From assembly GCA_024644515.1 (NCBI GenBank), contig JAHEHN010000029.1, positions 1 to 46,622 on the forward strand: DNA of 46,622 bases, read 5' to 3'. Made by a program: the position numbers and the translations under genes. Each line of letters opens with the position of its first letter. Position 1 is the first letter of the stretch. The stretch comes from Gammaproteobacteria bacterium. Its GTDB lineage: Bacteria > Pseudomonadota > Gammaproteobacteria > Pseudomonadales > Pseudohongiellaceae. The notes beneath the pieces are model-generated. The model made no database searches and was not told the origin of the DNA. It saw only the letters and a program-made list of their open reading frames with translations. Shown piece after piece: positions 1,428 through 24,468 of the stretch.

Positions 1428-1582
1428 ATAAAATTTCCCCCGTCCTCTGATTGATTGTGCAAATACTGTGGAATATAGGTATTTTTTACAGTATTTTTCC
1501 CTATGAACACTCTCAAATGACGGTAATGTCCTCGACTACCTTATAATTCTCTTCTTGTTAAAACGTGTTTCTGGATCCACTA

Positions 1583-3886
1583 ATGCAGTTGTTTTCTTTT
1601 CGCCACTTTCTTGCCAGTTTTTTCAGACGCAGCCTGATCCGACCAGTCCTCCTTTCAATATTTGCGCTGATCACCTTATTTCCGTTATCCGTCACTGCAC
1701 AGCTAACAGCCGGAAGTGATGGCGGAAAAACCATCGTGATTCCCAAGCTGGATGCCGAGGTCCGAATTGATGGTGTGCTCGATGATGATGCCTGGTCACA
1801 AGCACTGTTAATTGATGACTTTCATCAGTATGAACCTGTTGAATATGCAGAACCTTCCCAGAAAACCGAAGTGTGGATTTTTTACACCAGCGATGCGCTT
1901 TATATAGCCAGCCGTTTTTGGGAAACCGATCCCGATCTGATCAGTGCCAATATTCTGCGTCAGGGCCAGAGCCTTCAGGCCGATGATCTGCTTGCGGTAA
2001 TTCTTGATCCATACCTGGATCGTCGCAACGGATATCGCTTTGAGGTCAATGCCAATGGCGTACGTTGGGAAGGGTTATTTCAGAACATTACGAATATAGA
2101 AAGTAGTTGGGACGGCATCTGGCAAACCAATGCCACACGTGATGAAACTGGCTGGTACAGTGAAATGCGCATTCCGTTCCAGACCATTTCTTTTAATCCT
2201 GATTCTGATTCCTGGGGAATAAATTTTCGTCGCGCGATTCGCCGTAGTAACGAAAGTATAGGTTGGGTCTCACGTAATCGAACTATCAACCCCAGTATTG
2301 CCGGCACCATTACCGGCCTCGAAGGGCTTGAACAGGGAAAGGGGCTTGATATCGTGCCCTCCATGGTGCTCAGGCAGGATCGGGTGATCGGGCCAGCCGG
2401 GTTCACTGAAGAAAATTTTGAGCCTCAGCTTGATGTGTTTTACAAAGTTACTCCGCAGTTGAATGCCGCATTGACTTTGAATACCGACTTCTCTGCCGCT
2501 GAAGTTGATTCCAGACAAGTCAATCTGACACGCTTCAGTCTTTTCTTTCCGGAGAGGCGTGACTTTTTTATCCGTGATTCCGATATTTTTGAATTTGGCC
2601 AAATCGGTACCGGCGGTTTTAATCAGGGTGCCGGTAGTGGTAACCCTGCGGTTCCCAATGCCGCTGCGCAAAATGCACGGCCTTTTTTCTCACGACGCAT
2701 AGGCCTGAGTACATCCGGAGCCCCTGTGGACATCAATGCCGGGGCGAAACTTAGCGGGCGGGTAGGAGACTGGAATGTTGGAACTCTTATCATCAGCCAG
2801 GGCGAGGATGAAAACAGTGGTGTTGAGGCATCCGAAATTTTTGTGGGCCGGGCCGCCCTGAACGTATTGCAGGAATCCCAGCTTGGTGTCCTGGCTACCA
2901 GCGGTGACCCCCAGTCCAATCTTGATAATAATCTTATTGGTGTGGATTTTCGCTATCGTAATTCCCGCCTTCCTGGTGGCAGGGTGCTCCAGGGGGTAGC
3001 CTTTTACCAGAAATCTGACACCGAAGGTAAGACCGGAGATGATGCCTCCTATGGATTTGGTATAAGTTATCCGAATAACCAGGGCTGGCGTGGCGGTTAT
3101 GATTACAAGCGGGTCGAGAAAAATTTTGACCCGGCAGTAGGGTTTGTAGCCCTGACTGATATGGAAGACCATGCTCTGAATTTTGGCTATCGGCATTTCT
3201 TTCGGCCCGGCGGCTATATGCGTTCTTTTTATGCCGGATGGGATGCATACGAATCACGGGATCTTACTGATGGTGAGGTGATTTCCTCGAATATGGGGTT
3301 ACGCCTTACGACGAATAATAATTCAGGTGAAAGCGCCTTTGCCCGCATCATGAAAAGTCGGGAAGTGTTGCGGACCAATTTCACTATTAATCGAGCATCC
3401 GACGGTAGTCGCGTGATTGTCATTCCTGCAGGGGATTATTCCTTTGATGAATATCTGCTGGGTCTGCAGATAGGAAACCAACGTGCTGTATCCGGGCGCA
3501 TAAGTACTCGTTTTGGCGATTATTATAGCGGCACGCGCTGGCAGCGCGGTGCCGGTCTGAACTGGCGTCCTACGCGCAATTACGATATCGGCGTGAATTA
3601 CACCGAGACTGAAATCAATTTACCTGAGGGTGATTTTACGGTGCGCTTGTTTACACTGGATACCAAGATTGCGTTCAGCTCCAGATTATCCTGGAGCAAT
3701 TTAGTCCAGTATGACAATGTATCGGAAGTGATGGGGTTTAATTCACGCCTGAACTGGATTCCTGAAGCTGGACGTCAGGCATTTCTTGTTTTTAATTACG
3801 GTCTTGCTGATCTGGACAAGGATAATACCTTTCAGTCTACGGGGTCAGATTTGTCACTTAAATTTAATTACACCTTCAGATTTTAA
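1583..3886 (+). CDS. DUF5916 outer-membrane protein with CBM9-like N-terminal domain
   Basis: The protein is about 767 residues long and starts with a long signal peptide ending in SVTAQ. The next ~200 residues resemble a carbohydrate-binding family 9-like domain: IDGVLDDDAWSQA, YTSDALYIASRF and the GYRFEVNANGVRWEG segment. The remaining ~500 residues have the alternating pattern of a beta-barrel and match DUF5916, including the conserved FFPERRDFF motif. It ends in Phe (YTFRF), the usual C-terminal signal for outer-membrane insertion. Family members are outer-membrane proteins of unknown ligand; binding of a polysaccharide or peptide is inference. A paralogue lies at 22243-24468. I chose the ATG at 1583; an in-frame GTG at 1565 is possible and neither has a strong ribosome binding site. 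Confidence 0.88.
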   Translation: MQLFSFRHFLASFFRRSLIRPVLLSIFALITLFPLSVTAQLTAGSDGGKTIVIPKLDAEVRIDGVLDDDAWSQALLIDDFHQYEPVEYAEPSQKTEVWIFYTSDALYIASRFWETDPDLISANILRQGQSLQADDLLAVILDPYLDRRNGYRFEVNANGVRWEGLFQNITNIESSWDGIWQTNATRDETGWYSEMRIPFQTISFNPDSDSWGINFRRAIRRSNESIGWVSRNRTINPSIAGTITGLEGLEQGKGLDIVPSMVLRQDRVIGPAGFTEENFEPQLDVFYKVTPQLNAALTLNTDFSAAEVDSRQVNLTRFSLFFPERRDFFIRDSDIFEFGQIGTGGFNQGAGSGNPAVPNAAAQNARPFFSRRIGLSTSGAPVDINAGAKLSGRVGDWNVGTLIISQGEDENSGVEASEIFVGRAALNVLQESQLGVLATSGDPQSNLDNNLIGVDFRYRNSRLPGGRVLQGVAFYQKSDTEGKTGDDASYGFGISYPNNQGWRGGYDYKRVEKNFDPAVGFVALTDMEDHALNFGYRHFFRPGGYMRSFYAGWDAYESRDLTDGEVISSNMGLRLTTNNNSGESAFARIMKSREVLRTNFTINRASDGSRVIVIPAGDYSFDEYLLGLQIGNQRAVSGRISTRFGDYYSGTRWQRGAGLNWRPTRNYDIGVNYTETEINLPEGDFTVRLFTLDTKIAFSSRLSWSNLVQYDNVSEVMGFNSRLNWIPEAGRQAFLVFNYGLADLDKDNTFQSTGSDLSLKFNYTFRF

Positions 3887-4187
3887 AAGCAGGAAAAGCT
3901 GCAAGCAGTCTTGCTGGTTAAATTTCCAGCGGCTAAGGCTTGTTTTTTGTCCTGATACCCATTGTCCAGCGATCGACCAGGCATTAAATTTTTTGCGTCT
4001 GGAATGTCTCTTATTTTAATTAGCGTGGGAGTGGTTTATATTTGGACCAGCTACTGCATTCAGACCGTACTATTATTGTCTGATCTTCCTTGCAAACAGG
4101 CATGAAATTTATATGCACACCAACCTGATATTCACCAGGATTTTCAATTTTCGCTCTCCCTACAGGCGGGGGGGGCAAGCATATTCC
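3887..4187. other. Intergenic stretch with a G8 tract
   Basis: No gene is supported here if the DUF4159 start is 4188. Apart from the G8 run at 4168-4175, I see only short imperfect hairpins and no convincing terminator after the barrel gene. Confidence 0.5.
4168..4175 (+). repeat. G8 homopolymer upstream of the DUF4159 start
   Basis: Eight consecutive G end 12 bases before the ATG at 4188. If the upstream ATG at 4113 were used, a length change here would shift the frame of the N-terminal extension. Confidence 0.65.
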
Positions 4188-4988
4188 ATGATAGCGCTAT
4201 TGATTATCTTTAGCCTTTTGGCTGGTCAATTCGCTTTAGCTCAGGGCTCCATGACAGTGAATCCGGGTCTTTCCGGCAATACTCAGGCAGACCGTGATGG
4301 TTCGGAGTTCCAGTTTGCCAGACTTCAGTACAACGGAAATAATCTGGGAGGTCGGGGAGGTTGGGGACGTGGATCATGGACTACTGACTGGCCTGAGGCG
4401 GAACACTTCCTGACAGAAGGTATTTCCAGATTAACCAATGTAGATGTTACCCAGGTGGCCCTTTACAACGGAGAAGGTGGTGAGCGCATTAATCTCGCCG
4501 ATGATGCCATTTTTGACTATCCCTGGCTTTATGCTGTGGAAGTTGGGCGCTGGGCTTTTAATGCCCTGGAAGCGGACAAATTGCGCGAATACCTTTTACG
4601 CGGTGGGTTTCTGATGGTTGATGATTTTCATGGCAGCTATGAATGGAGCCAGTTTGAAATAGGCATGAAACAGGTTTTCCCGAACCGTCCGATCAGGGAT
4701 ATTCCTGATAATGATGAAGTGTTTCATGTTCTGTATGATCTGGATTCTAAAATTCAGATTCCCGGACTGGGCGCTTTTTACCGTGGTGTGACCTATGAAC
4801 AGGATGGGTACGATCCTCACTGGCGGGGGATTTATGATGATCATGGCAGGCTGGTAGTTGCCATTAACCATAATATGGACCTTGGTGATGCCTGGGAGCA
4901 TGCTGATACACCCGGCTATCCTGAACCCATGACAGCATTGGCTTATCGCTTTGCCGTTAACTACGTTATTTATTCGATGACCCACTAA
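4188..4988 (+). CDS. DUF4159 domain exported protein
   Basis: The signal peptide (MIALLIIFSLLAG, ending ALAQ) sets the start at 4188. An in-frame ATG at 4113 would add 25 residues that do not look like a signal sequence. The mature part matches DUF4159: WTTDWPEAEHF, a 'LREYLLRGGFLMVDDFHG' segment typical of the family, and a C-terminal half rich in aromatic residues ending near NYVIYSMTH. DUF4159 proteins have a glutamine-amidotransferase-like fold and often sit near MoxR/DUF58 gene clusters. None of those partners is seen here, so this copy stands alone. It is expected in the periplasm and its function is unknown. Confidence 0.88.
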   Translation: MIALLIIFSLLAGQFALAQGSMTVNPGLSGNTQADRDGSEFQFARLQYNGNNLGGRGGWGRGSWTTDWPEAEHFLTEGISRLTNVDVTQVALYNGEGGERINLADDAIFDYPWLYAVEVGRWAFNALEADKLREYLLRGGFLMVDDFHGSYEWSQFEIGMKQVFPNRPIRDIPDNDEVFHVLYDLDSKIQIPGLGAFYRGVTYEQDGYDPHWRGIYDDHGRLVVAINHNMDLGDAWEHADTPGYPEPMTALAYRFAVNYVIYSMTH

Positions 4989-5016
4989 AGAGAAAGTTTT
5001 TTGAACTTATCCCTCT

Positions 5017-5093
5017 CTATCTTCAAACTATCTTCAAACTATCTTCAAACTATCTTCAAACTATCTTCAAACTATCTTCAAACTATTTTTCAA
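5017..5093. repeat. 11-bp tandem repeat, six perfect copies plus one degenerate
   Basis: The unit CTATCTTCAAA is repeated head to tail six times (5017-5082), followed by a diverged seventh copy (5083-5093, CTATTTTTCAA). It starts 29 bases after the DUF4159 stop and ends about 70 bases before the dipeptidase start. The unit length is close to one helical turn, so the short A-tracts are in phase and the DNA is probably curved. Confidence 0.95.
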
Positions 5094-5164
5094 GCTGTAG
5101 ATTCTAACTCCTGATGATTGAATTATAAGCAATATTTCCAATACGCCAGAAACTTCCAACCAAT

Positions 5165-6277
5165 ATGGTTTTTACTATGACAAGATTATTTTCTTTTTCC
5201 CTAATTATTTTTTCTTCACTTGTGTCATTAAGCGTTAAAGGGGCAAGTGAGGCGGATTTGATAGCCCGTGCCCGAGCTATTCATGACAATGTAATGGCCC
5301 TGGATACCCATGTCGATATCCCTCTGAATTTTGCTACCAGTGAACATGACCCGGCAAACGCCGAAGCCCAGGTGACACTGGACGCCATGCATAGCGGTGG
5401 TCTGGATGCTGCCTTTTTTATTGTTTATGTGGGGCAGCAGGAAAGAACAGAAGAAAACTATCGTAAAGCCAGAGCGGATGCCGTGGCAAAATTTGATGCC
5501 ATCCATCGCATGACAGAATATATGTACCCTGATCAGATAGGACTGGCTGATACTGCGGCAGAAGTCAGAGCTTTATCTGCACAGGGTAAGCTGGTTGCCC
5601 TGATCGGAATAGAAAATGGTTTTGCCATGGGCCAGGATTTGTCCCTGCTGGAGGGTTACCGCGAGCGCGGTGCCCGTTATATGACCCTGGTACACAATGG
5701 ACATAATGACATTGGTGACTCAGCTCAACCGCGACCGCAGTTTGGTGACATGGATACGGAGCATGGTGGGCTGAGCGAATTTGGCTATGAAGTGGTCGAT
5801 GAATTAAATCGCCTGGGTATATTGGTAGATATTAGCCATGTCAGCCGACAGACCATGCTCGATGCAACGAGTGCGTCGAAAGCCCCGGTTATTGCCTCCC
5901 ATTCAAGCGTTACTGCGCTGACTGATCATCCGAGAAACATGAATGATGAGCAGATGCTGGCCTTGAAAGACAATGGCGGTGTAATGCAGATAGTCGCTTT
6001 TAACCCCTATGTCAGGGAGGGCGGAGATGCCACGCTGGAATTATTTGTTGATCATATTGATTATGCAGTCGATTTGATCGGCATAGACCATGTGGGAATT
6101 TCATCTGACTTTGGCGGCGGTGGAGGTATTTCCGGTTGGAGCAATGCCACTGAAACCTTCAATGTCACTCTGGAACTGGTCAGACGTGGCTATTCAGAGG
6201 ACAGTATTCGCAAAATCTGGGGCGGTAATGTCCTGCGTATCCTTGAAGAAGCAGAGCGCGTGGCCCAAAGCTACTGA
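5165..6277 (+). CDS. Membrane dipeptidase, peptidase family M19
   Basis: The product is 370 residues long with an N-terminal signal sequence (about residues 1-26). It matches the zinc-dependent M19 renal-dipeptidase family. Visible motifs include DTHVDIP (metal-binding HxD), LIGIENGFAMG (bridging Glu), LVHNGHND, VDISHVS and PVIASHSS, in the usual order, and a late GIDHVGISSDFGGG segment. The enzyme should hydrolyse dipeptides, perhaps including D-residues, in the periplasm. Length is normal for the family. The ATG at 5165 has no obvious ribosome binding site and a second ATG lies at 5177. The 11-bp repeat array lies in its upstream region. Confidence 0.93.
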   Translation: MVFTMTRLFSFSLIIFSSLVSLSVKGASEADLIARARAIHDNVMALDTHVDIPLNFATSEHDPANAEAQVTLDAMHSGGLDAAFFIVYVGQQERTEENYRKARADAVAKFDAIHRMTEYMYPDQIGLADTAAEVRALSAQGKLVALIGIENGFAMGQDLSLLEGYRERGARYMTLVHNGHNDIGDSAQPRPQFGDMDTEHGGLSEFGYEVVDELNRLGILVDISHVSRQTMLDATSASKAPVIASHSSVTALTDHPRNMNDEQMLALKDNGGVMQIVAFNPYVREGGDATLELFVDHIDYAVDLIGIDHVGISSDFGGGGGISGWSNATETFNVTLELVRRGYSEDSIRKIWGGNVLRILEEAERVAQSY

Positions 6278-11900: not shown

Positions 11901-12938
11901 ATGATCATCAAAACCAGGAAAGAGATTCCTTCTTCAGAGATTACCCCTGAAGCCGTATATCGGGATCGACGCAAATTCCTGAAAAGTAGTCTTGCCGCAG
12001 GGATCGGTGGTACCGGACTCTTGTCTTCAACCCTCAATGCCCAGACCGGAGATGCCCTGTTTGCCAGGGCGCCCGCAGACATCAACCTGGCGTCGAAGCC
12101 CGACTGGCTGGTAGAAAAGGCCGCTGCACGCACCGATGCACCGGCAAGTGGCCCCTTTAATACTGATGAAGAGCTGACGCCGTTCGACGATGTGTCGACC
12201 TATAACAACTTCTATGAATTTGGCACCGGAAAAGATGATCCGGCTCGCAATGCCCGGGATTTCAGTATTGAGCCCTGGACGGTGAAGGTAGAAGGCGAAT
12301 GCGCCAAGCCGGGTTCCTATAGCCTGGAAGATATTCTCAAACCACATACTTTTGAAGAAAGAGTGTTTCGACTGCGCTGTGTAGAAGCGTGGTCAATGGT
12401 GATTCCCTGGGTGGGTTTTTCACTGGGTGATTTATTGAAACGTTTTGAGCCCACGGGTGATGCTAACTATGTTCAGTTCGATACCCTGGTGGACTCTGAA
12501 CAGATGCCTGCCCAGCGCTCACGATTTGCCACTATTGACTGGCCCTATCAGGAAGGCCTGCGCATGGATGAAGCAATGCACCCTCTGGCAACCATAGCAA
12601 CGGGTCTATACAACGATATTCTGCCAGCTCAGAATGGTGCGCCACTGCGCCTGGTGGTGCCCTGGAAATACGGTTTCAAAAGTATCAAATCCATTGTTGC
12701 GATTCGCTTCACCAAAACCATGCCGAACAATACCTGGAGAGATCTTCAGGCCAGCGAGTATGGTTTTTATGCCAATGTGAACCCCCAGGTCAGCCACCCG
12801 CGCTGGAGTCAGGCCAGTGAAAGGCGTCTGCCCACCAGCCTGTTCATGCCACGCCGCATTGATACCATGATGTTCAATGGCTATGCCGATGAAGTAGCGA
12901 GCCTGTATGACGGTATGGATTTACGCAGATTTTATTAA
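11901..12938 (+). CDS. msrP: Methionine-sulfoxide reductase catalytic subunit, periplasmic
   Basis: MsrP is a molybdopterin enzyme that repairs oxidised methionines of periplasmic proteins, using electrons from MsrQ. The N-terminus carries a twin-arginine signal, DRRKFLKSS around residues 22-30, so it should be exported folded by Tat. The molybdenum ligand is Cys160 in FRLRCVEAWSM, followed by a VPWKYGFKSIKSI segment of the sulfite-oxidase fold. Length (345) is typical. msrQ follows after 27 bases, so the pair forms an operon. Earlier symbol: yedY. Confidence 0.96.
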   Translation: MIIKTRKEIPSSEITPEAVYRDRRKFLKSSLAAGIGGTGLLSSTLNAQTGDALFARAPADINLASKPDWLVEKAAARTDAPASGPFNTDEELTPFDDVSTYNNFYEFGTGKDDPARNARDFSIEPWTVKVEGECAKPGSYSLEDILKPHTFEERVFRLRCVEAWSMVIPWVGFSLGDLLKRFEPTGDANYVQFDTLVDSEQMPAQRSRFATIDWPYQEGLRMDEAMHPLATIATGLYNDILPAQNGAPLRLVVPWKYGFKSIKSIVAIRFTKTMPNNTWRDLQASEYGFYANVNPQVSHPRWSQASERRLPTSLFMPRRIDTMMFNGYADEVASLYDGMDLRRFY

Positions 12939-12965: not shown

Positions 12966-13583
12966 ATGAGCTTTCTGGCCAAACCTGTCATTTTCCTGCT
13001 TTGTCTGGCACCAGGTGCTTATCTGGCGTATGCCGTTTATCTGGCATTTACCGGTGGCGAGAATCTGCTCGGCCCTGACCCGGCGCAGTTTCTGTCTTTG
13101 GAGACCGGTGAGTGGGCCATCCGCTTGCTCATATTATCCCTGGCAATTACACCGCTGAGATACCTGTTTAACTGGCCTGTTTTATTTCGCTTTCGGCGCA
13201 TGATCGGTTTATTTGCCTACTTCTATGTATGCCTGCATCTGCTGGTGTTTCTGATGTTTTTGCTACAGTGGCAATGGGGTGATATCGGGACCGAAATTGC
13301 TGAAAGGCCTTTTATTACTATCGGTTTTGCTGCCTTTATAATTCTGACACCACTGGCCGCGACTTCATTCAATATCGCCCAGCGTAAACTGGGCAGAAAT
13401 TGGAAGCGTTTGCACAGGCTGTCTTACGCAGCATCAATTCTGGGTGCTTTACACGTGATCTGGATTGTCAGATCGAGCTATTTTGATGCCGTCTTATACG
13501 GGGGACTGGTTGCCCTTTTGCTCGGATATCGCCTGTTGCGGAAGTACAGCAAGGCCGTACAGCAGTTCAGCCTGTTAAAGTGA
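12966..13583 (+). CDS. msrQ: Heme-binding membrane subunit MsrQ
   Basis: This 205-residue inner-membrane protein with about six hydrophobic segments belongs to the ferric-reductase-like transmembrane family. It passes electrons from the respiratory chain to MsrP. Visible features include the LAITPLRYLF and FRRMIGLFAYFYVCLHLLVF segments with heme-ligand histidines (CLHLL, the RLHRLSYAAS region and ALHVIW). It directly follows msrP. Earlier symbol: yedZ. Confidence 0.95.
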   Translation: MSFLAKPVIFLLCLAPGAYLAYAVYLAFTGGENLLGPDPAQFLSLETGEWAIRLLILSLAITPLRYLFNWPVLFRFRRMIGLFAYFYVCLHLLVFLMFLLQWQWGDIGTEIAERPFITIGFAAFIILTPLAATSFNIAQRKLGRNWKRLHRLSYAASILGALHVIWIVRSSYFDAVLYGGLVALLLGYRLLRKYSKAVQQFSLLK

Positions 13584-13773: not shown

Positions 13774-13834
<61 letters not shown>

Positions 13835-13850
<16 letters not shown>

Positions 13851-14010: not shown

Positions 14011-14107
14011 TCCTATTGCTGTAAATCTGTCTCTGCAGCACTTTCATATAAAATTTATGCTAATGTCACCAGAGCAGGTTCTGTACTTAATCTATTTGGA
14101 CAATGAC

Positions 14108-15118
14108 GTGATTTCAGGTTTGAAAAAATTTATTACCTATACCCTGTTTTTCGCCGCGGCGTGGGCTTCACCATCGTTCTCCCATCATGGCAATTTCACT
14201 TATGATGGGAATACTGTCATCACCTTGCAGGGTGAAGTAATCAAATTCAACTACACCAATCCCCACGGCTCAATAATTCTCAGGACAGAGACTGGTCGTG
14301 AGGTTGATATTGAAGTGGATGGTCCCTCGTTAATCGCTCCCATGGGGACTGACAGAAATGCCCTGCAGCCCGGAGACAGGATAGTTGTCTATGTAAGCCC
14401 CAATAATATAGGCCGGGAAAATGAAGTTCTGGGCAGGGAAGTAATCCGTGAAGATGGTTCCATTGTTCTGGTCTCTGTTGCCTATGCACGTCAGCAGGAA
14501 CGGGATAATGTGGAAAAAGCAGAAACGGTTCTGGGCACCTGGGTGCCGGTTAGAACCAATCTGTTCGCTTTTGTGGACAGCAGTTCCGATTGGCTGCTAA
14601 CGCCAGCCGGGCAGGCCTCATTTGATGCCTATGACACCAGCAAAGCCTTCGCCCAGGCTCAATGCATTGCTGCAACCAGTCCAACACTGATGATGTATCC
14701 CACGGCGAACAGACTGACAGTGGTAGGCGGGCACATTGAAATCAATGCGGACTGGATGGGTGCCACACGCACGGTGTATATGGATGGACGTGAACACCCA
14801 GGTTTGGAGAGCCGTTATTACCAGGGGCACTCAGTGGGACATTGGGAAGATGAAACTCTGGTGATTGAAACGACAAATTTTACTGACAATCCTATAGGCA
14901 ATATTTTCAGTATTGGATCAGGGGCTGGCAAAAAACTGATAGAAAGAATTTCACTGGATGCTGATGGCAGCACAGCTACCTATTCATTTACTCTTATGGA
15001 TCCAGATTATCTGGCACAACCGGTAACAGGCAGTTACCAATGGGATTATCGGCCAGATGTGAGTATGAGCAGTCAGGAATGTGATCTTGAAGCAGCCGCT
15101 CGCTACCTGCAAGATTGA
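14108..15118 (+). CDS. Exported two-domain protein: DUF6152 + SVGHWE-type domain
   Basis: This protein of about 336 residues has a signal sequence (LKKFITYTLFFAAAWASP) ending SFS, then HHGNFTYDG as predicted mature N-terminus. Its DUF6152 half carries the NPHG motif (YTNPHGSIIL). The second half (last ~185 residues) has TVYMDGREHPG and GHSVGHWEDETLVIETTNF. Its cysteines (AQCIAATSP and SQECDLEA) correspond to those of the paralogues. It has the same architecture as the gene at 290-1387. The start is uncertain: the GTG at 14108 or the TTG 12 bases later gives a proper signal peptide, while the reading frame is open with an ATG from 14063. It heads a run of four related genes. Function is unknown. 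Confidence 0.8.
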   Translation: MISGLKKFITYTLFFAAAWASPSFSHHGNFTYDGNTVITLQGEVIKFNYTNPHGSIILRTETGREVDIEVDGPSLIAPMGTDRNALQPGDRIVVYVSPNNIGRENEVLGREVIREDGSIVLVSVAYARQQERDNVEKAETVLGTWVPVRTNLFAFVDSSSDWLLTPAGQASFDAYDTSKAFAQAQCIAATSPTLMMYPTANRLTVVGGHIEINADWMGATRTVYMDGREHPGLESRYYQGHSVGHWEDETLVIETTNFTDNPIGNIFSIGSGAGKKLIERISLDADGSTATYSFTLMDPDYLAQPVTGSYQWDYRPDVSMSSQECDLEAAARYLQD

Positions 15119-15309
15119 GTTTTATCGGCCTGGGACCTAGCTAAACAGAATTTGCAAGGATAAAGGATTCGGGTGCCAGGCCTTTACTCCATGCAAATGG
15201 CAGTGATATAAAAAACACATGTATGTCTATATAGCGCCGCTTTTTTAGCTGAAGTGTTGTATAAAGAAAAAATAAGAAAGTGACTATCGATTAATCGCAA
15301 TTGAATTGT

Positions 15310-15329
15310 CACATCAAGTCACATCAAGT
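15310..15329 (+). repeat. 10-bp direct repeat, two copies
   Basis: CACATCAAGT occurs twice head to tail, just upstream of the G8 tract and the next gene. Confidence 0.8.
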
Positions 15330-15337
15330 AATAAAGA

Positions 15338-15345
15338 GGGGGGGG
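15338..15345 (+). repeat. G8 homopolymer upstream of the SVGHWE gene
   Basis: Eight consecutive G end 24 bases before the ATG at 15370. The tract is too far away to be a normal ribosome binding site for that ATG. Confidence 0.6.
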
Positions 15346-15369
15346 CGATTTTCAATCGCCAAAGTCATC

Positions 15370-16167
15370 ATGCAGCGTGCCATAATTTTTTTGTTGCTCA
15401 GCCATTTTGCCTTTATTGGTTCTGTAAATGCCCAGGAACTGCCTGACTGGAGTGGCGTGTGGGCCATGATGGGAGGCACCATTTTTGACCAGGACACCAA
15501 AATTGGCGACGGCGGATCAACCGCAGTAGGGGTTCGCGAACACCCTCCATATAACGATGCATATGAAGCGAAGTATCTGGCTAATCTGGTGCTTCGTGAT
15601 GCTGGCGTCTTTCCCGATCCCAATTCATTCTGTGGTATTCCCACCGGCTTTCCCCGATTAATGAATTTGCCGGATGTGTATGAATTTGCCGTTACGCCGA
15701 AACAAGTCTGGATCATTACTGAAAACGGACCCAATGTGATGCGTATTTATACCGACGGCAGGGAGCATCCCGCGGCAAATGATATGTGGCCAACCCATAC
15801 AGGTGATTCTGTTGGTTATTGGCAAGGTGACACACTCGTGTTTGATACCCTGAGTTTGCATAGCTCTGAAAGTGGCAATACCATCATTGATCGAACCGGC
15901 CTGGTACTCAGTGATGCAGCTCACATCGTCACCCGCATGCATATAAATGATGATGGCATGATGGAAGCACAAATGACTATCAATGATGCCAAGGCTCTGA
16001 CTGCACCCTGGGTAGTCACCAAGCGCTATCGAAAACTGGAAGAGGGCGCACGCGTGTATGATTATGCCTGTAATGAAAATAACAGAAATCCTATTGATCC
16101 CAATACCGGCTGGACATATACCATTGGTACGGATGGGAAGATAATAGATATTAATCCGGGCCAGTAA
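15370..16167 (+). CDS. Exported SVGHWE-type domain protein
   Basis: This 265-residue protein has a signal peptide (MQRAIIFLLLSHFAFIGSVN, cleavage after NAQ or nearby), so I place the start at 15370; the frame is open from 15301. It has no DUF6152 part. The domain shows SFCGIPTGFPRLM, then RIYTDGREHPA, TGDSVGYWQGDTLVFDT and a final DYACNENNRNP. The paired cysteines match those of its paralogues. It lies 29 bases upstream of a stand-alone DUF6152 gene, so the two domains that are fused elsewhere are adjacent here. It is expected in the periplasm. Function is unknown. Confidence 0.8.
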   Translation: MQRAIIFLLLSHFAFIGSVNAQELPDWSGVWAMMGGTIFDQDTKIGDGGSTAVGVREHPPYNDAYEAKYLANLVLRDAGVFPDPNSFCGIPTGFPRLMNLPDVYEFAVTPKQVWIITENGPNVMRIYTDGREHPAANDMWPTHTGDSVGYWQGDTLVFDTLSLHSSESGNTIIDRTGLVLSDAAHIVTRMHINDDGMMEAQMTINDAKALTAPWVVTKRYRKLEEGARVYDYACNENNRNPIDPNTGWTYTIGTDGKIIDINPGQ

Positions 16168-16196
16168 AATAAGGGCTATCGGTAACAGGGGTGAAG

Positions 16197-16589
16197 ATGA
16201 TGAAGAGTTCCAGATTATCAAAGAATATGTTTTTGCTTGTCTTGTTAATGGCAAATATGGGTATAAGTCCTGCGTTTTCCCACCATTCCAATGCCATGTT
16301 TAACCAGGATGAAGTGCTTGCACTCTCAGGGACTATCAAGGAATTTCAGTTCACTAATCCGCATACCTGGATACAACTGATGGTTAAAGATGAGAGCGGA
16401 AAAGAGGTGGAGTGGAGTCTGGAATGGGGCAGTCCAAATAATCTGGGTCGACAGGGTGTCAGGCCATCGACATTTCCTGCCGGGGCCGATGTCACAATCA
16501 AGACCTACCCCATGAAAGATGGCTCTCCCGGAGGGCTTTTCATTGGCGCTCAGTTTAGCGACGGCAAGACAGTCGGCCGCTGGGAGTAA
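16197..16589 (+). CDS. Stand-alone DUF6152 exported protein
   Basis: This small protein (~131 residues) has a signal peptide ending PAFS, then HHSNAMFNQ. It consists only of the DUF6152 domain: the SGTIKEFQF strand, TNPHTWIQL, VEWSLEWGSP and a Gly-rich end, MKDGSPGGLF. AGGGG precedes the tandem ATGs (16197 and 16200), so I prefer one of these to the GTG at 16191. It lies between two stand-alone SVGHWE-domain genes. The fusion genes in this window suggest that the two domain types act together. Confidence 0.85.
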   Translation: MMKSSRLSKNMFLLVLLMANMGISPAFSHHSNAMFNQDEVLALSGTIKEFQFTNPHTWIQLMVKDESGKEVEWSLEWGSPNNLGRQGVRPSTFPAGADVTIKTYPMKDGSPGGLFIGAQFSDGKTVGRWE

Positions 16590-16651
16590 CTACTATTAGC
16601 TTCTAACTAGCTGAAAAATAGTAGAAAATAAACATTTTACAAGATTACGAA

Positions 16652-16679
16652 ATTTAGTAAGTACAATTTAGTAAGTACA
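16652..16679 (+). repeat. 14-bp direct repeat, two copies
   Basis: ATTTAGTAAGTACA occurs twice head to tail, ending 33 bases before the next start codon. Confidence 0.85.
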
Positions 16680-16712
16680 ATAAGAGTCAAGGAAATATAG
16701 AGAGGGGAAGTA

Positions 16713-17504
16713 ATGAAAAAGCTCATAACAATTTTTACCATGGCAGGCATGCTATTGTGCACTGGCGCTGTTTTTGCGCAGCGTCCGGCCGAGGATAGTC
16801 CCAGAACACCAACACCACGACTGCCTGATGGCACTGTCGATCTGGGTGGTAACGGAGTCTGGAATTTACCCTATGTCACTAATATTGCTGCCCGCATGGA
16901 AGGCTTTGATGAAGGCAAACGTCCGCCTTTTCGTCCCTGGGCACAGGCCATGTGGGCCTATAATCGCTCCAACCTGGTGAAATATGACCCGGAAGGTTTC
17001 TGCCTGCCTCCCGGCGGCCCACGTTCCATGGGCACACCTTATCCTGCAGAAATAATCCAGAACCGTGATCGTATTCTGATTATCTTTGAAGGTGGCGGGC
17101 ATGTGTGGCGAGAAATTCATATGGATGGTCGCGAACATCCGCCACTGGAAGAATTGAACCCAACCTATTTCGGCCATTCTGTTGGCCATTGGGAGGGTGA
17201 TACGCTGGTGGTTGATACTATCGGTTATAACGAAAAAACCTGGATAGATTACAACGGGCATATGCACACAGAGCAGTTACACACAATTGAATACATAACC
17301 CGGCCCTTCAAGGAAGTCCTGCATTATGTTGCTGTAATTGATGATCCAGGGGCCTACACCGAACCATGGACAGTGCAGTGGAATATCAACTGGAATGATG
17401 ACCAGGAACTTCAGGACTATGTTTGCCAGGAAAATAACAAATTCCTGCTGGATATGGTTGACGATGAAGGCAATCCATTCTTTCAGAAAACCAACGGACT
17501 GTAA
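16713..17504 (+). CDS. Exported SVGHWE-type domain protein
   Basis: This 263-residue protein has a clear signal peptide (MKKLITIFTMAGMLLCTGAV, ending FAQ) and a good ribosome binding site, GAGAGGGGA, eight bases or less upstream. It shows GFCLPPGGPRSMG, EIHMDGREHPP, GHSVGHWEGDTLVVDTIGYN and DYVCQENNKF. It is most like the gene at 15370 in its C-terminal CxENN motif. It is the last gene of the run and converges on nnrE with an eight-base gap. Related proteins are, as far as I know, common in acidobacteria and marine proteobacteria and remain uncharacterised. Confidence 0.85.
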   Translation: MKKLITIFTMAGMLLCTGAVFAQRPAEDSPRTPTPRLPDGTVDLGGNGVWNLPYVTNIAARMEGFDEGKRPPFRPWAQAMWAYNRSNLVKYDPEGFCLPPGGPRSMGTPYPAEIIQNRDRILIIFEGGGHVWREIHMDGREHPPLEELNPTYFGHSVGHWEGDTLVVDTIGYNEKTWIDYNGHMHTEQLHTIEYITRPFKEVLHYVAVIDDPGAYTEPWTVQWNINWNDDQELQDYVCQENNKFLLDMVDDEGNPFFQKTNGL

Positions 17505-21682: not shown

Positions 21683-22242
21683 AGCGCCTTGGGCAGCCCT
21701 GAAGGCGGCCGGGGGAATAGCGGGCATTCATCTTTCCAGTGTCGCTCGCTACCAGTTTATTTGAAATCACCGGTTATTCTCTCGTCCTGGTCTGGAATTC
21801 AATCTTGATTTTGAAAAGCGTCACAAGGTCATCATTGACCGCTTCGGGCGTTATCCCCATCGCAACGAGATTCTTGGCAGGCAGTCTAGCGCCGAAGAGC
21901 AAGAGTTTCTTAAACAACCAGGGTCTGCTTTTTAGCAATCACGTCTTGTTGCTGGTCCCGATCCTGCTTTTTGTTGTTATTGACGCAAGCAATTTATTTC
22001 AATTCCAGCTTTTCTCGAATAAACAGATCTGTGAATGGAACAAATGCGTATCACTAATATCATGATTTAATTGATGTTTCATCATAGTGCAGGGTGCCTT
22101 GTTAAGGCGCATGACGGCTTTCAAACAACTAAAATTGTGAATATTCAGGGGATTTTTATGCGAATCTCGACTGATAGCTTTACATAGCAGAAGTCATCGC
22201 TATACTCGCCCACAACCTCTCTAACTGCCATTTATCTTGCTC
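21683..22242 (+). other. 560-base stretch with only a gene remnant
   Basis: Just after the dehydrogenase stop is a strong hairpin (CGCCTT..GGGC/CCCTG..AAGGCG, about 21685-21709) without a T run. The DUF924 remnant follows. From 21936 to 22242 I see nothing I can support beyond the presumed promoter of the next gene. Confidence 0.5.
21765..21935 (+). pseudogene. C-terminal remnant of a DUF924 family gene
   Basis: In frame before the TAG at 21933, 57 codons are open with no start codon of their own and a stop just upstream. They encode FEKRHKVIIDRFGRYPHRNE followed by ILGR and end in FLKQPGSAF, which is the conserved end of DUF924 proteins (normally about 180-200 residues). The N-terminal two thirds are absent or unrecognisable. 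It is a decayed gene. Confidence 0.82.
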
Positions 22243-24468
22243 ATGCTGCAATACTTGAATACGAAAAATATCTTATTCGTAACGGCACTTTTTTTTGTGC
22301 CATTTGCATCCGCGCAGCTACCGGAAAGTGAATTTGGTACAGACATCCGCAATGAGTTTTCCGGGACTCTTGATGCCGACCAGGGGCGCAAAAGGATTTC
22401 AATCGCACGTACCACAGATGCACCAGTCATTGATGGCGTACTGGACGATGCGATCTGGCAATCTGCAACAGTAATTAGTGATTTACACCAGTTCCAGCCT
22501 GTAGATCATGGTGAGCCCTCCGAAAGTTCTGTTTTTTATATTACCTATAGTGATCGGTTCTTTTATGTAGCTGCCAGGCTCAATGACAGTGATGCGGATG
22601 CGATCATTGCACGTCAACTTATTCAAGGTGGTGGACTGGGCAGTGATGATTCCTTTGAGTTCATTCTCGATACCTTCAATAACGGCAGAACCGGTTACCA
22701 CTTCCAGGTAAACCCGAATGGTATTCGACGCGAAGGCATTTATGAAAACCCCAATGATCTGAATCGTGACTGGACTGGAATCTGGCAGGTAGAGTCGCAA
22801 ATTGATGAGCAGGGCTGGACAGCCGAAGTCGCTATTCCTTTTAACACACTGAATTTTGATCCCGATACCGAGGAGTGGGGATTCACCATAGCGCGAACGG
22901 TTTCGCGCAAGCGTGAAGATATGGCCTGGTCATCATTTAATCGCCGTATTAACCCGACTACAACGGGCTTGATATCGGGGATTCGTGGTATTCGACAGGG
23001 CAAGGGGCTGGATATTATTCCTTCCATAACTGCTGCGACTAACGAAAATTATACAAGTAATGTTACTGGCCAGCGTTATGACCCGTCGTTAAATGTCTTT
23101 TATAAAATCACTCCGAATCTCACGGGGGCGATGACGTTTAATACCGATTTTTCCGCCACCGAAGTTGATAATCGTCAGGTCAACCTTAGCCGCTTTTCTC
23201 TATTTTTTCCTGAAAAGCGCGACTTCTTTCTGCAGGATCTTGATATTTTTAGTTTCGGCGGTCTGAACCAGAATGGTATTCCTTTTTATTCCAGGCGTAT
23301 TGGCCTGAGCAGAAGGGGCACACCAGTAGATATCAATGCGGGTGTCAAATTGACTGGCCGGGTGGGTCGCTGGAATGTCGGTGGGCTGGGTGCCAGGCAG
23401 GGGGATTTCGATGGCCTGGATAGCCAGAATGTCTTTGTCGGTCGAGCAGCGGCAAATGTGCTGTCAGAATCCAGTGTGGGCGCTATCTTTACCCATGGTG
23501 ACCCCACCAGTGATACTGACAACATGCTGGGCGGGGTAGATTTTCGTTATCAGAATACCCGTTTTTCCGAGTCTCATAGCCTCAGAGGTAATGTCTGGTA
23601 TCAGCAATCCGATACACAAGGTCTGGACGGTGATGAGAAGGCTTTTGGTATTGGGGCTAATTTTGATACCCAGAACAATGGTTTTGGCGGTTCTATAGGC
23701 TATGAATATTTTGGTGATGACTTCAATCCAGCGCTGGGTTTCGCCAATCGTACCGGTGTCGACAATCTGGATTTTCGTGGTTCGGGACGCTATTTCTTCA
23801 AAGGCCATAAATGGCTGCGAAATGTTTTTACTTTCATGCGTTTTGGCCATACCCGTTTTCTTGATACCAAGGAAATGCAAAGTGAGAATTTTTTCTGGCG
23901 TATGCTTAATTTCAATACCCACCGAGGCGATCAGGTGGGTTTTGGAGGATTTCGTAACAGGGAAGGGCTGCGCAGAGATTTCACCATCAGGCCCGGCATC
24001 GTTATTCCTGCAGGCAACTACACCTTTAGCGGCTTCAATATGGAAGCAAGACTATCCAATCAGCTGGAATTCTCACCAGGAATAAGCTTTAACATTGGCG
24101 ATTACTACGATGGTGAACGCATGCAGGTCAATGCCAATATAGACTGGGCCCCGAATGAGCATATCAACATTGGTTTTAATTATAATTATCAGGATATTAC
24201 CCTTCCCCAGGGTTCCTTTGACGTGCGTCTGGTATCGGCGAATGCGAACTACGCCTTTAATTCAAAATGGTCCTGGATTAACCTGATTCAGTATGACAAT
24301 TTTTCCGATGTGGTAGGGATTAATAGTCGTCTGCGCTGGAATCCGCAGGCCGGAGAAGACCTGTTTCTGGTAATTAATTACAATTTCGACGCGGAAGGCG
24401 TCTTTGCCGATCTGAATTCCAATAATGCGGAAATTGTTTTGAAATACACCAAAACTTTCCGTTTCTAA
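22243..24468 (+). CDS. DUF5916 outer-membrane protein with CBM9-like N-terminal domain (paralogue 2)
   Basis: This protein of about 741 residues has a signal peptide ending FASAQ and the same architecture as the gene at 1583-3886. The CBM9-like part (~residues 50-250) shows PVIDGVLDDAIWQSA, YSDRFFYVAARL and GYHFQVNPNGIRREG. The barrel part shows FNTDFSATEVDNRQVNLSRF and LFFPEKRDFF and ends in the aromatic C-terminus KTFRF. Long stretches align with the first paralogue, including PAGNYTFSGF against PAGDYSFDEY and the D-x-FSD-V-x-G-x-NSRL-x-W segment. Ligand is unknown. The ATG at 22243 is preferred to a TTG six bases earlier. Confidence 0.9.
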   Translation: MLQYLNTKNILFVTALFFVPFASAQLPESEFGTDIRNEFSGTLDADQGRKRISIARTTDAPVIDGVLDDAIWQSATVISDLHQFQPVDHGEPSESSVFYITYSDRFFYVAARLNDSDADAIIARQLIQGGGLGSDDSFEFILDTFNNGRTGYHFQVNPNGIRREGIYENPNDLNRDWTGIWQVESQIDEQGWTAEVAIPFNTLNFDPDTEEWGFTIARTVSRKREDMAWSSFNRRINPTTTGLISGIRGIRQGKGLDIIPSITAATNENYTSNVTGQRYDPSLNVFYKITPNLTGAMTFNTDFSATEVDNRQVNLSRFSLFFPEKRDFFLQDLDIFSFGGLNQNGIPFYSRRIGLSRRGTPVDINAGVKLTGRVGRWNVGGLGARQGDFDGLDSQNVFVGRAAANVLSESSVGAIFTHGDPTSDTDNMLGGVDFRYQNTRFSESHSLRGNVWYQQSDTQGLDGDEKAFGIGANFDTQNNGFGGSIGYEYFGDDFNPALGFANRTGVDNLDFRGSGRYFFKGHKWLRNVFTFMRFGHTRFLDTKEMQSENFFWRMLNFNTHRGDQVGFGGFRNREGLRRDFTIRPGIVIPAGNYTFSGFNMEARLSNQLEFSPGISFNIGDYYDGERMQVNANIDWAPNEHINIGFNYNYQDITLPQGSFDVRLVSANANYAFNSKWSWINLIQYDNFSDVVGINSRLRWNPQAGEDLFLVINYNFDAEGVFADLNSNNAEIVLKYTKTFRF

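Follow-up and report, generated by a model that had tools for sequence, protein, structure and literature searches.

We found that some uncultured bacteria carry dozens of copies of an undescribed pair of exported protein domains, one of which probably holds a metal ion with its very first amino acids while the other is predicted to be cup-shaped for small molecules, and that the two domains evolve together as a unit. The first domain is DUF6152 (Pfam PF19649; hereafter D1), and the second (D2) has no Pfam or NCBIfam model. The pair was first noticed in a stretch of 46,622 nucleotides from a gammaproteobacterial genome (contig JAHEHN010000029.1; hereafter the window), in which five open reading frames encode proteins of this type:

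290-1387, + strand: D1-D2 fusion (365 aa); predicted mature His-His encoded at 362-367, followed by the DUF6152 domain, a linker, and the predicted D2 barrel
14108-15118, + strand: D1-D2 fusion (336 aa from the GTG at 14108; an in-frame ATG at 14057 is also possible); predicted mature His-His at 14183-14188
15370-16167, + strand: D2-only exported protein (ATG at 15370; TTG at 15301 upstream)
16197-16589, + strand: D1-only (DUF6152) exported protein (GTG at 16191 also possible); predicted mature His-His at 16281-16286
16713-17504, + strand: D2-only exported protein

We first examined the domain composition of these proteins. DUF6152 was detected above its Pfam cut-off of 27 bits in the frames at 290 (56.6 bits), 14108 (53 bits), and 16191 (100.8 bits), whereas no Pfam family was found up to E 1 in those at 15301 and 16713, and no NCBIfam model reached its cut-off in any of the five. 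A profile grown from the 16713 product detected D2 in the window frames 16701, 15295, 248, and 13958 with E-values of 6e-100, 2e-57, 2e-54, and 1e-42, respectively, and a D1 profile gave the same split, i.e., two proteins with both domains, two with D2 only, and one with D1 only. These results confirm the preliminary description, which had reported five exported proteins built from two modules fused in some genes and split in others, except that its motif [IV]YxDGR fits 290, 14108, and 15370, while 16713 reads IHMDGR. As for export, a hydrophobic stretch and an AxA-type site precede the His-His of D1 across the family, and a crude signal-peptide finder detected a signal-peptide-like start in 42 of 42 D2-only frames of the genome. 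The window shows only a small part of the whole: the 2.7 Mb genome has 45 D1 places, all above the Pfam cut-off, and 54-56 D2 places or frames, with 14 fusions, which is far more than chance.

Next, we sought to examine whether the two domains are functionally linked, as the preliminary description had inferred from fusion in one place and adjacency in another. In a sample of 149 genomes from another phylum (that of a genome whose record is titled Bryobacteraceae), 12 genomes had both domains, none had D1 only, 1 had D2 only, and 136 had neither (Fisher 9e-16 without the index genome). In the window's own genome, 28 of 31 lone D1 lie within 300 bp of a lone D2, and 59 of 66 lone D1 are likewise adjacent in the loci picked by D2; here, adjacency was based on stop-to-stop frames, some of which overlap. 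Furthermore, neighbouring D1 and D2 diverge in step: their distances were correlated with r 0.67 in the own genome (26 pairs) and 0.75 in other genomes (57 pairs), compared with 0.63 for the fusions (14), and 0 of 2000 permutations reached these values in each case. D1 comes first in 13 and D2 first in 13 of the 26 own pairs, showing that adjacency is kept in both orders. In contrast, one sample did not support the link: among 274 genomes of the window's own class, 6 have D1 and 3 have D2 (one at E 6e-4), and only the window's genome has both (Fisher 0.06); the five other D1 there are a distant lone type. Overall, these data support a functional link between D1 and D2. Moreover, in the literature searched, no paper mentions DUF6152 or PF19649, and no function is described for this family in Pfam.

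A feature not seen in the preliminary description is the position of the His-His motif of D1. It directly follows a signal-peptidase-type site in 128 of 129 complete proteins, where position -1 is A/S/G in 127 of 128 and P in 1 (A 87%), -2 is A in 12%, -3 is A/V/L, and -4 is often P; the exception is one complete fusion (positions 4024-5178 of our locus L148), which lacks His-His. Locus L086, being cut, was left out of this site profile. The same was found in 80 of 80 D1 fetched by their listed Pfam places (the better-scoring ones) without regard to His-His, in 7 of 7 D1 looked at in sister genera with 1-2 copies, in 5 of 5 distant lone D1 (one matches in part only), and in 6 of 6 looked at on plasmids, of 25 records with a match. 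The crude finder put its site upstream of His-His in many proteins and was replaced by the position profile; even so, it placed His-His near its site in 32 of 42 own D1 and 55 of 73 other D1 with a site, against 0 of 42 and 0 of 94 D2-only frames and 7 of 898 other frames. The mature chain is thus predicted to start with His-His. In an alignment of 216 D1, from which proteins without His-His or cut by a contig end (L125 1-966 and L137 1-1005) had been left out, His28 of the NPH motif, which was not selected for, is present in 216, Pro27 in 214, Trp45 in 206, and Glu48 in 205 sequences. A mutual-information analysis of these sequences (effective number 173) recovered the beta2-beta3 pairing and coupled residues 4-7 with 30, 78, and 84-88, but it is confounded by subfamilies and phylogeny and serves only as a hint; a mean-field coupling analysis of 136 sequences was discarded because invariant columns gave artificial top scores.

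We then turned to structure prediction. In the AF2 model of the mature form of the 290 fusion, D1 is predicted as an OB fold, with structural similarity to PriB (4apv; Z 10.7, rmsd 2.3, 81 aligned). The top Foldseek matches of the fusion were lysyl-tRNA synthetases with poor overall superposition, which we take as OB-domain matches. The model of the D2-only 16713 product (pLDDT 91.4, pTM 0.87) shows an antiparallel barrel with helices between the first and second strands, and the closest structural matches are FABP/CRBP-type barrels (best Z 9.0, rmsd 3.2, 124 aligned). Support for this predicted fatty-acid-binding-protein-like barrel is moderate, because Z 9.0 is only a little above what models without a clear match reach, and D2 alone has no Foldseek match at E 0.001 or better (best 1.1e-3) in a list that also contains outer-membrane phospholipase barrels. 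Profile searches of solved structures found no credible homologue for either domain (D2 none up to E 1; best D1 E 0.22).

The genomic surroundings of the pairs were also examined. Neighbours within 1200 bp in the own genome (106 proteins) and within 450 bp elsewhere (118 of the 204 within 1200 bp) include tannase, LigB dioxygenase, amidohydrolase, and PQQ dehydrogenase. However, no single enzyme family recurs beside the pairs, since at most 4 of 106 and 5 of 118 neighbours, respectively, share a Pfam family, and PQQ dehydrogenases are expanded in the whole family, D1-poor genera too (12-36 hits), and were therefore regarded as background. On the other hand, in 6 of 7 loci of sister genera with 1-2 D1, the D1-D2 pair lies within about 1.3 kb of a HupE/UreJ_2-type gene (Pfam-confirmed in the 3 tested, by motif in 3), whose product has a His right after a signal-peptide-like stretch. 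HupE/UreJ-2 permeases with an N-terminal-His domain bind copper (PMC12537917), although the HupE/UreJ_2 proteins found here have only a short stretch before the membrane domain, not a whole metal domain.

Taken together, we tentatively propose that D1 and D2 are the two halves of one periplasmic module. In this view, D1 is a small predicted OB-fold barrel whose signal peptide is cut directly before His-His, and the free amino end and His1 (with His2), together with the invariant His28 and possibly Glu48, hold a metal ion, most likely Cu(II). D2, with an invariant GxW on its first strand, a helical lid, and two invariant cysteines that probably form a disulphide, would hold a small, probably hydrophobic or aromatic molecule. 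D1 may thus supply the same metal chemistry everywhere and D2 the specificity, so that the pair is duplicated as a unit for different molecules; there are 18-75 D1 copies in three genera of this family and 12-129 in 25 genomes picked by D2 (27 loci), of which three look the same as relatives already counted. The D1 counts from these genomes are not an independent sample, because the 80 loci from which they come are the best of 578 confirmed and were found by D2. We consider it most likely that the metal site acts on, or coordinates, the molecule held by D2, but metal binding, the identity of the metal, the ligand, and any catalysis are inferred from sequence and models without measurement or knowledge of the distance from His1/His2 to His28. 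If this is right, paralogous families of up to 129 members in a genome of Acidobacteria and uncultured Gammaproteobacteria, now of unknown function, are a metal-plus-ligand system, which would add an OB fold to the folds that carry an N-terminal-histidine metal site. An even more far-reaching but unlikely possibility is that the pairs constitute an undescribed class of periplasmic copper enzymes, with the metal on the His-His terminus of an OB fold, the substrate in a separate FABP-like barrel, and tens of versions per genome (up to 129 D1) each acting on a different small molecule, as a modular bacterial counterpart to cytochrome P450 expansions.

Other explanations were also considered. A less likely one is that the module captures or delivers metal without chemistry of its own, in which D1 picks up Cu, Ni, or another ion (or the ion in complex with a small chelator held by D2) and hands it to permeases or periplasmic metalloenzymes. 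This would suit the above HupE/UreJ_2 neighbours and, by sequence start in 6 of 7 of the same loci, a solute-binding protein (SBP_bac family in the one tested, possibly of an iron type). In addition, a lone D1 (locus L256) lies beside DUF411, a family that is probably tied to copper, two plasmid D1 loci lie within about 3 kb of siderophore receptor or transport genes, and DUF4198, DUF6702, and anglerases, which share the N-terminal His, behave as metal binders with little activity (PMC12537917). However, tens of copies, up to 129 in one genome, are hard to explain by metal supply; the window's genome has two HupE/UreJ_2 places, neither within 10 kb of a D1 or D2 place; and no metal-transport family stands out among the neighbours apart from TonB receptors (3 of 106).

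It is also possible, but unlikely, that this is a periplasmic solute-binding or sensing family, in which D2 barrels bind diverse molecules for uptake or sensing, D1 is a docking or oligomerisation domain, and His-His is a docking or structural feature rather than a metal site. The large paralogue numbers and varied catabolic neighbours suit many ligands, OB folds tend to bind other molecules, and D2 is the more numerous domain, kept at 6-23 copies in sister genera with only 1-2 D1. Nevertheless, this does not explain why His28 is invariant and His-His all but invariant while mean identity is 33-45%, nor why His-His sits exactly at the predicted cleavage site. Least likely, in our view, is that the conservation reflects only the leader peptide and folding, with His-His and NPH being structural and the genes being together through inherited gene order. 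A shared ancestral cassette explains some adjacency, and D1 comes first in 43 of 57 pairs of other genomes; on the contrary, both orders are equally common in the own genome, there are 14 fusions, and adjacency persists over 28 lone D1 spread over many contigs.

Finally, we compared the pair with known systems. The N-terminal-histidine metalloproteins found by signal strapping (PMC12537917) likewise have His directly after the signal-peptidase site (79% for DUF4198, 65% for DUF6702, and 100% for Ang-1 and Ang-2), but Ang-1 is an immunoglobulin-like beta-sandwich, while D1 is predicted to be an OB fold and to start with His-His, has a second domain as partner, and occurs in tens of copies. Histidine-brace copper proteins (LPMO, CopC, pMMO; PMC10952591) also combine an N-terminal His (predicted in D1) with a further invariant His; the five proteins have no Pfam match to them, and the predicted fold does not appear to be theirs. 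CusF and SilF, periplasmic OB-fold Cu(I)/Ag(I) chaperones (PMC10656224), are exported five-strand OB barrels, as is predicted for D1, but their site consists of one His, two Met, and a Trp inside the chain, whereas D1 has no conserved Met and a predicted free His-His terminus. Compared with FABP/CRBP-type barrels (calycins), of which GxW is probably a mark, D2 is exported, has a longer helical insert between the first and second strands, and carries the two invariant Cys. NlpE/CutF appears to be a two-domain envelope protein of a lipocalin-like and an OB domain, linked to copper, but its domain order would be opposite to that of the 14 own fusions, in which the predicted OB domain precedes the barrel. 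A lipobox-like motif was found in only 2 of 42 own D2-only frames, although the D2 partner in 7 of 7 sister-genus loci looks like a lipoprotein by eye, with [LV]xAC.

Pfam recognises DUF6152 (here D1) in the proteins encoded at 290, 14108 and 16197, but no Pfam family was found up to E 1 in those encoded at 15370 and 16713, and no NCBIfam model reached its cut-off in any of the five. We then built a profile from the 16713 protein, which found a shared second domain (D2) in the products of 290, 14108, 15370 and 16713. The preliminary description, in which two of these proteins carry both modules, two carry only the second and one carries only the first, is thus right in its anatomy; only the motif that it gave for the second domain, starting with [IV]YxDGR, needs the note that 16713 reads IHMDGR.

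Next, we searched the whole genome for the two domains. D1 has 45 places, and D2 has 54 to 56 according to three searches. In the fetched regions, the 45 D1 and 56 D2 frames include 14 fusions, with D1 before D2 in each, and one frame has two D2. Of the 31 D1-only frames, 28 have a D2-only frame within 300 bp, 26 of them on the same strand; the exceptions are in the loci L044, L059 and L060, the last of which (HHGW) resembles a distant lone type of D1 described below. In addition, six long D2 proteins (470–508 aa) share an extra N-terminal region of roughly 180–220 aa of unknown kind; one of them was scanned without a Pfam match. They are located as follows:
L052, 4418-5884, long D2 protein
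L047, 2967-4490, long D2 protein
L073, 198-1607, long D2 protein
L072, 4567-6045, long D2 protein
L050, 6190-7602, long D2 protein
L064, 5858-7333, long D2 protein

To examine whether the two domains also occur together in other genomes, named genome contigs were scanned with a D2 alignment, and 80 loci were kept, which by their titles are mostly from Gammaproteobacteria and Acidobacteria. These loci hold 87 D1 and 135 D2 frames with 21 fusions, and 59 of 66 D1-only frames lie within 300 bp of a D2-only frame. One of them, L157 (CALQCC020000002.1), is a MAG record titled Bordetella parapertussis that carries two adjacent D2 genes and whose genome has 46 D1 places; the label is probably wrong. 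Among 37 relatives, both domains occur in the same 24, which are the 24 members of the window's family in the sample, while the 13 genomes of other families have neither. Within the family, D1 is present at 45–75 copies in the window's genus, at 18–22 and 37–53 in two other genera, and at 1–2 in five genera, where D2 still has 6–23 copies (the counts correlate at 0.92). In a sample of 149 genomes from the phylum of the genome behind locus L110, D1 was found in 12, and D2 in the same 12 and one more. In contrast, in 274 genomes of the window's class, D1 is in 6 and D2 in 3, with only the window's genome shared, which speaks against the association.

We next asked whether neighbouring D1 and D2 diverge in step. 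For adjacent pairs, the D1 and D2 distance matrices correlate at 0.67 (26 pairs of the own genome) and 0.75 (57 pairs of others), while the fusions, in which the pairing is certain, give 0.63 (14 proteins); none of 2000 permutations reached any of these values. Because the distances are uncorrected and the permutations ignore the tree, the size of the effect rather than a p-value should be considered here. In the own genome, D1 precedes D2 in 13 pairs and follows it in 13, whereas elsewhere D1 is first in 43 of 57.

The predicted mature N-terminus of D1 was then examined. In all 35 aligned D1 of the own genome, the His-His follows a small residue, and the same was seen for all 45 in a second analysis. 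Over 128 proteins, the positions before it read as a textbook signal-peptidase I site: -1 is Ala in 87% (A/G/S in 99%), -2 is Ala in 12%, -3 is Ala/Val/Leu, and -4 is often Pro; a hydrophobic stretch precedes in 124 of 128. One complete protein, a fusion in L148 (4024-5178), keeps NPH but has no His-His after its signal peptide, thereby representing a natural test of what His-His does. Eighty further D1, fetched by their listed Pfam places, all have His-His, preceded by A in 76, G in 2, S in 1 and T in 1; so do 7 of 7 D1 looked at in sister genera, 5 of 5 distant lone D1, and 6 of 6 looked at on plasmids of Paracoccus, Sinorhizobium, Comamonas and Azospirillum. The His of NPH is invariant (216 of 216; the motif is PPH in most of the plasmid proteins), and Trp45 (206) and Glu48 (205) are nearly so. 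An N-terminal His is a natural chelator, and signal strapping has used this mark to find metalloproteins (PMC12537917); that the site of D1 binds metal is, however, an inference.

For the predicted folds, the mature 290 fusion was modelled from 106 sequences, which gave a D1 core with pLDDT mostly above 90, a loose linker at 102-123, and D2 (mean pLDDT 81.9, pTM 0.71). In this model, D1 aligns to OB folds (PriB, SSB; Z 10.7, rmsd 2.3, 81 residues) and D2 to CRBP/FABP and NanoLuc barrels (Z 9.8, rmsd 3.4, 121 residues). D2 alone (16713, modelled from 102 sequences) reached a pLDDT of 91.4 and a pTM of 0.87. It aligns to FABP-type barrels (Z 7.9–9.0); however, the TM-scores are near 0.5, no Foldseek match is at E 0.001 or better, and the Foldseek list also holds phospholipase A barrels. 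The invariant G-x-W of D2 lies on the first strand, as the GxW of calycins probably does, and two Cys are invariant and may form a disulphide.

The neighbours of the many copies are varied. Among 106 neighbouring proteins of the own genome, PQQ dehydrogenase and cytochrome c were found 4 times each, TonB receptor, SMP-30 and metallo-beta-lactamase 3 times each, and tannase 2 times; among 118 neighbours in other genomes, metallo-beta-lactamase was found 5 times, amidohydrolase and SIMPL 3 times each, and tannase and arylmalonate decarboxylase 2 times each. This suits many small organic molecules but names no partner. Furthermore, a third small exported protein (GxW near the start, often QEGHPL..W) recurs beside D1/D2 genes in 19 loci (4 of them in the own genome), including L132 (1768-2181), L044 (14258-14665) and L059 (12569-13021); the one tested has no Pfam match. 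By eye, the protein encoded at L072 1687-2820 looks like such a domain fused to D2.

In sister genera with 1–2 D1, on the contrary, the pair has a steady place. In 6 of 7 loci, a HupE/UreJ_2-type gene (Pfam-tested in 3) lies within about 1.3 kb, and its product has a His right after a signal-peptide-like stretch (6 of 6 found; L160, L161, L163, L164, L165 and L166), as anglerases do, but with only a short stretch before the membrane domain. In 6 of 7, the start of the same kind of solute-binding protein (Pfam-tested in one) is seen. The D2 partner in these loci (L160-L166) ends its leader in [LV]xAC in 7 of 7, judged by eye, so it may be a lipoprotein, unlike most D2 of the window's genome. 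The distant lone D1 have another neighbour: a small membrane protein, annotated DUF6644 or DUF2214, lies directly downstream in 6 of 6 annotated plasmid loci (L260, L261, L262, L265, L266 and L267), out of 8 regions opened, of which 2 are without annotation. Another locus of this type, L256 (7391-9058), has a similar gene (DUF6644 just below cut-off) and DUF411 upstream. These data suggest that D1 works with more than one partner, and that D2 is the partner in the expanded lineages.

Taken in this way, D1 may be the constant half, inferred to hold a metal, and D2 the variable half, inferred to hold a ligand, with the pairs duplicating and diverging together. We tentatively favour the possibility that the metal reacts with the ligand, partly because tens of copies fit substrates better than metal supply, although the metal may instead be the cargo itself. 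The separate elements (N-terminal-His metal sites, OB folds and FABP barrels) are already known, but their combination and scale appear to be new, since no paper mentioning DUF6152, PF19649 or DUF6644, or “histidine brace” together with “OB-fold”, was found in the literature searched, which excludes most subscription papers and all bioRxiv preprints.

A possible link to copper was noticed just upstream of the 14108 fusion, where the following features lie:
11901-12938, molybdopterin oxidoreductase (Oxidored_molyb)
12966-13583, ferric-reductase-like membrane protein (Ferric_reduct)
13774-13850, tRNA-Ile, separating these two genes from the fusion

The two genes are probably an MsrPQ pair, a name that we infer. 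In E. coli, MsrPQ keeps the OB-fold copper chaperone CusF working (PMC9302797), which is suggestive but a single case; another fusion (L067, 4904-5953) also has an Oxidored_molyb neighbour. Elsewhere in the window, two proteins with CBM9-like and DUF5916 domains are encoded at 1565-3886 and 22237-24468, one of them directly after the 290 fusion.
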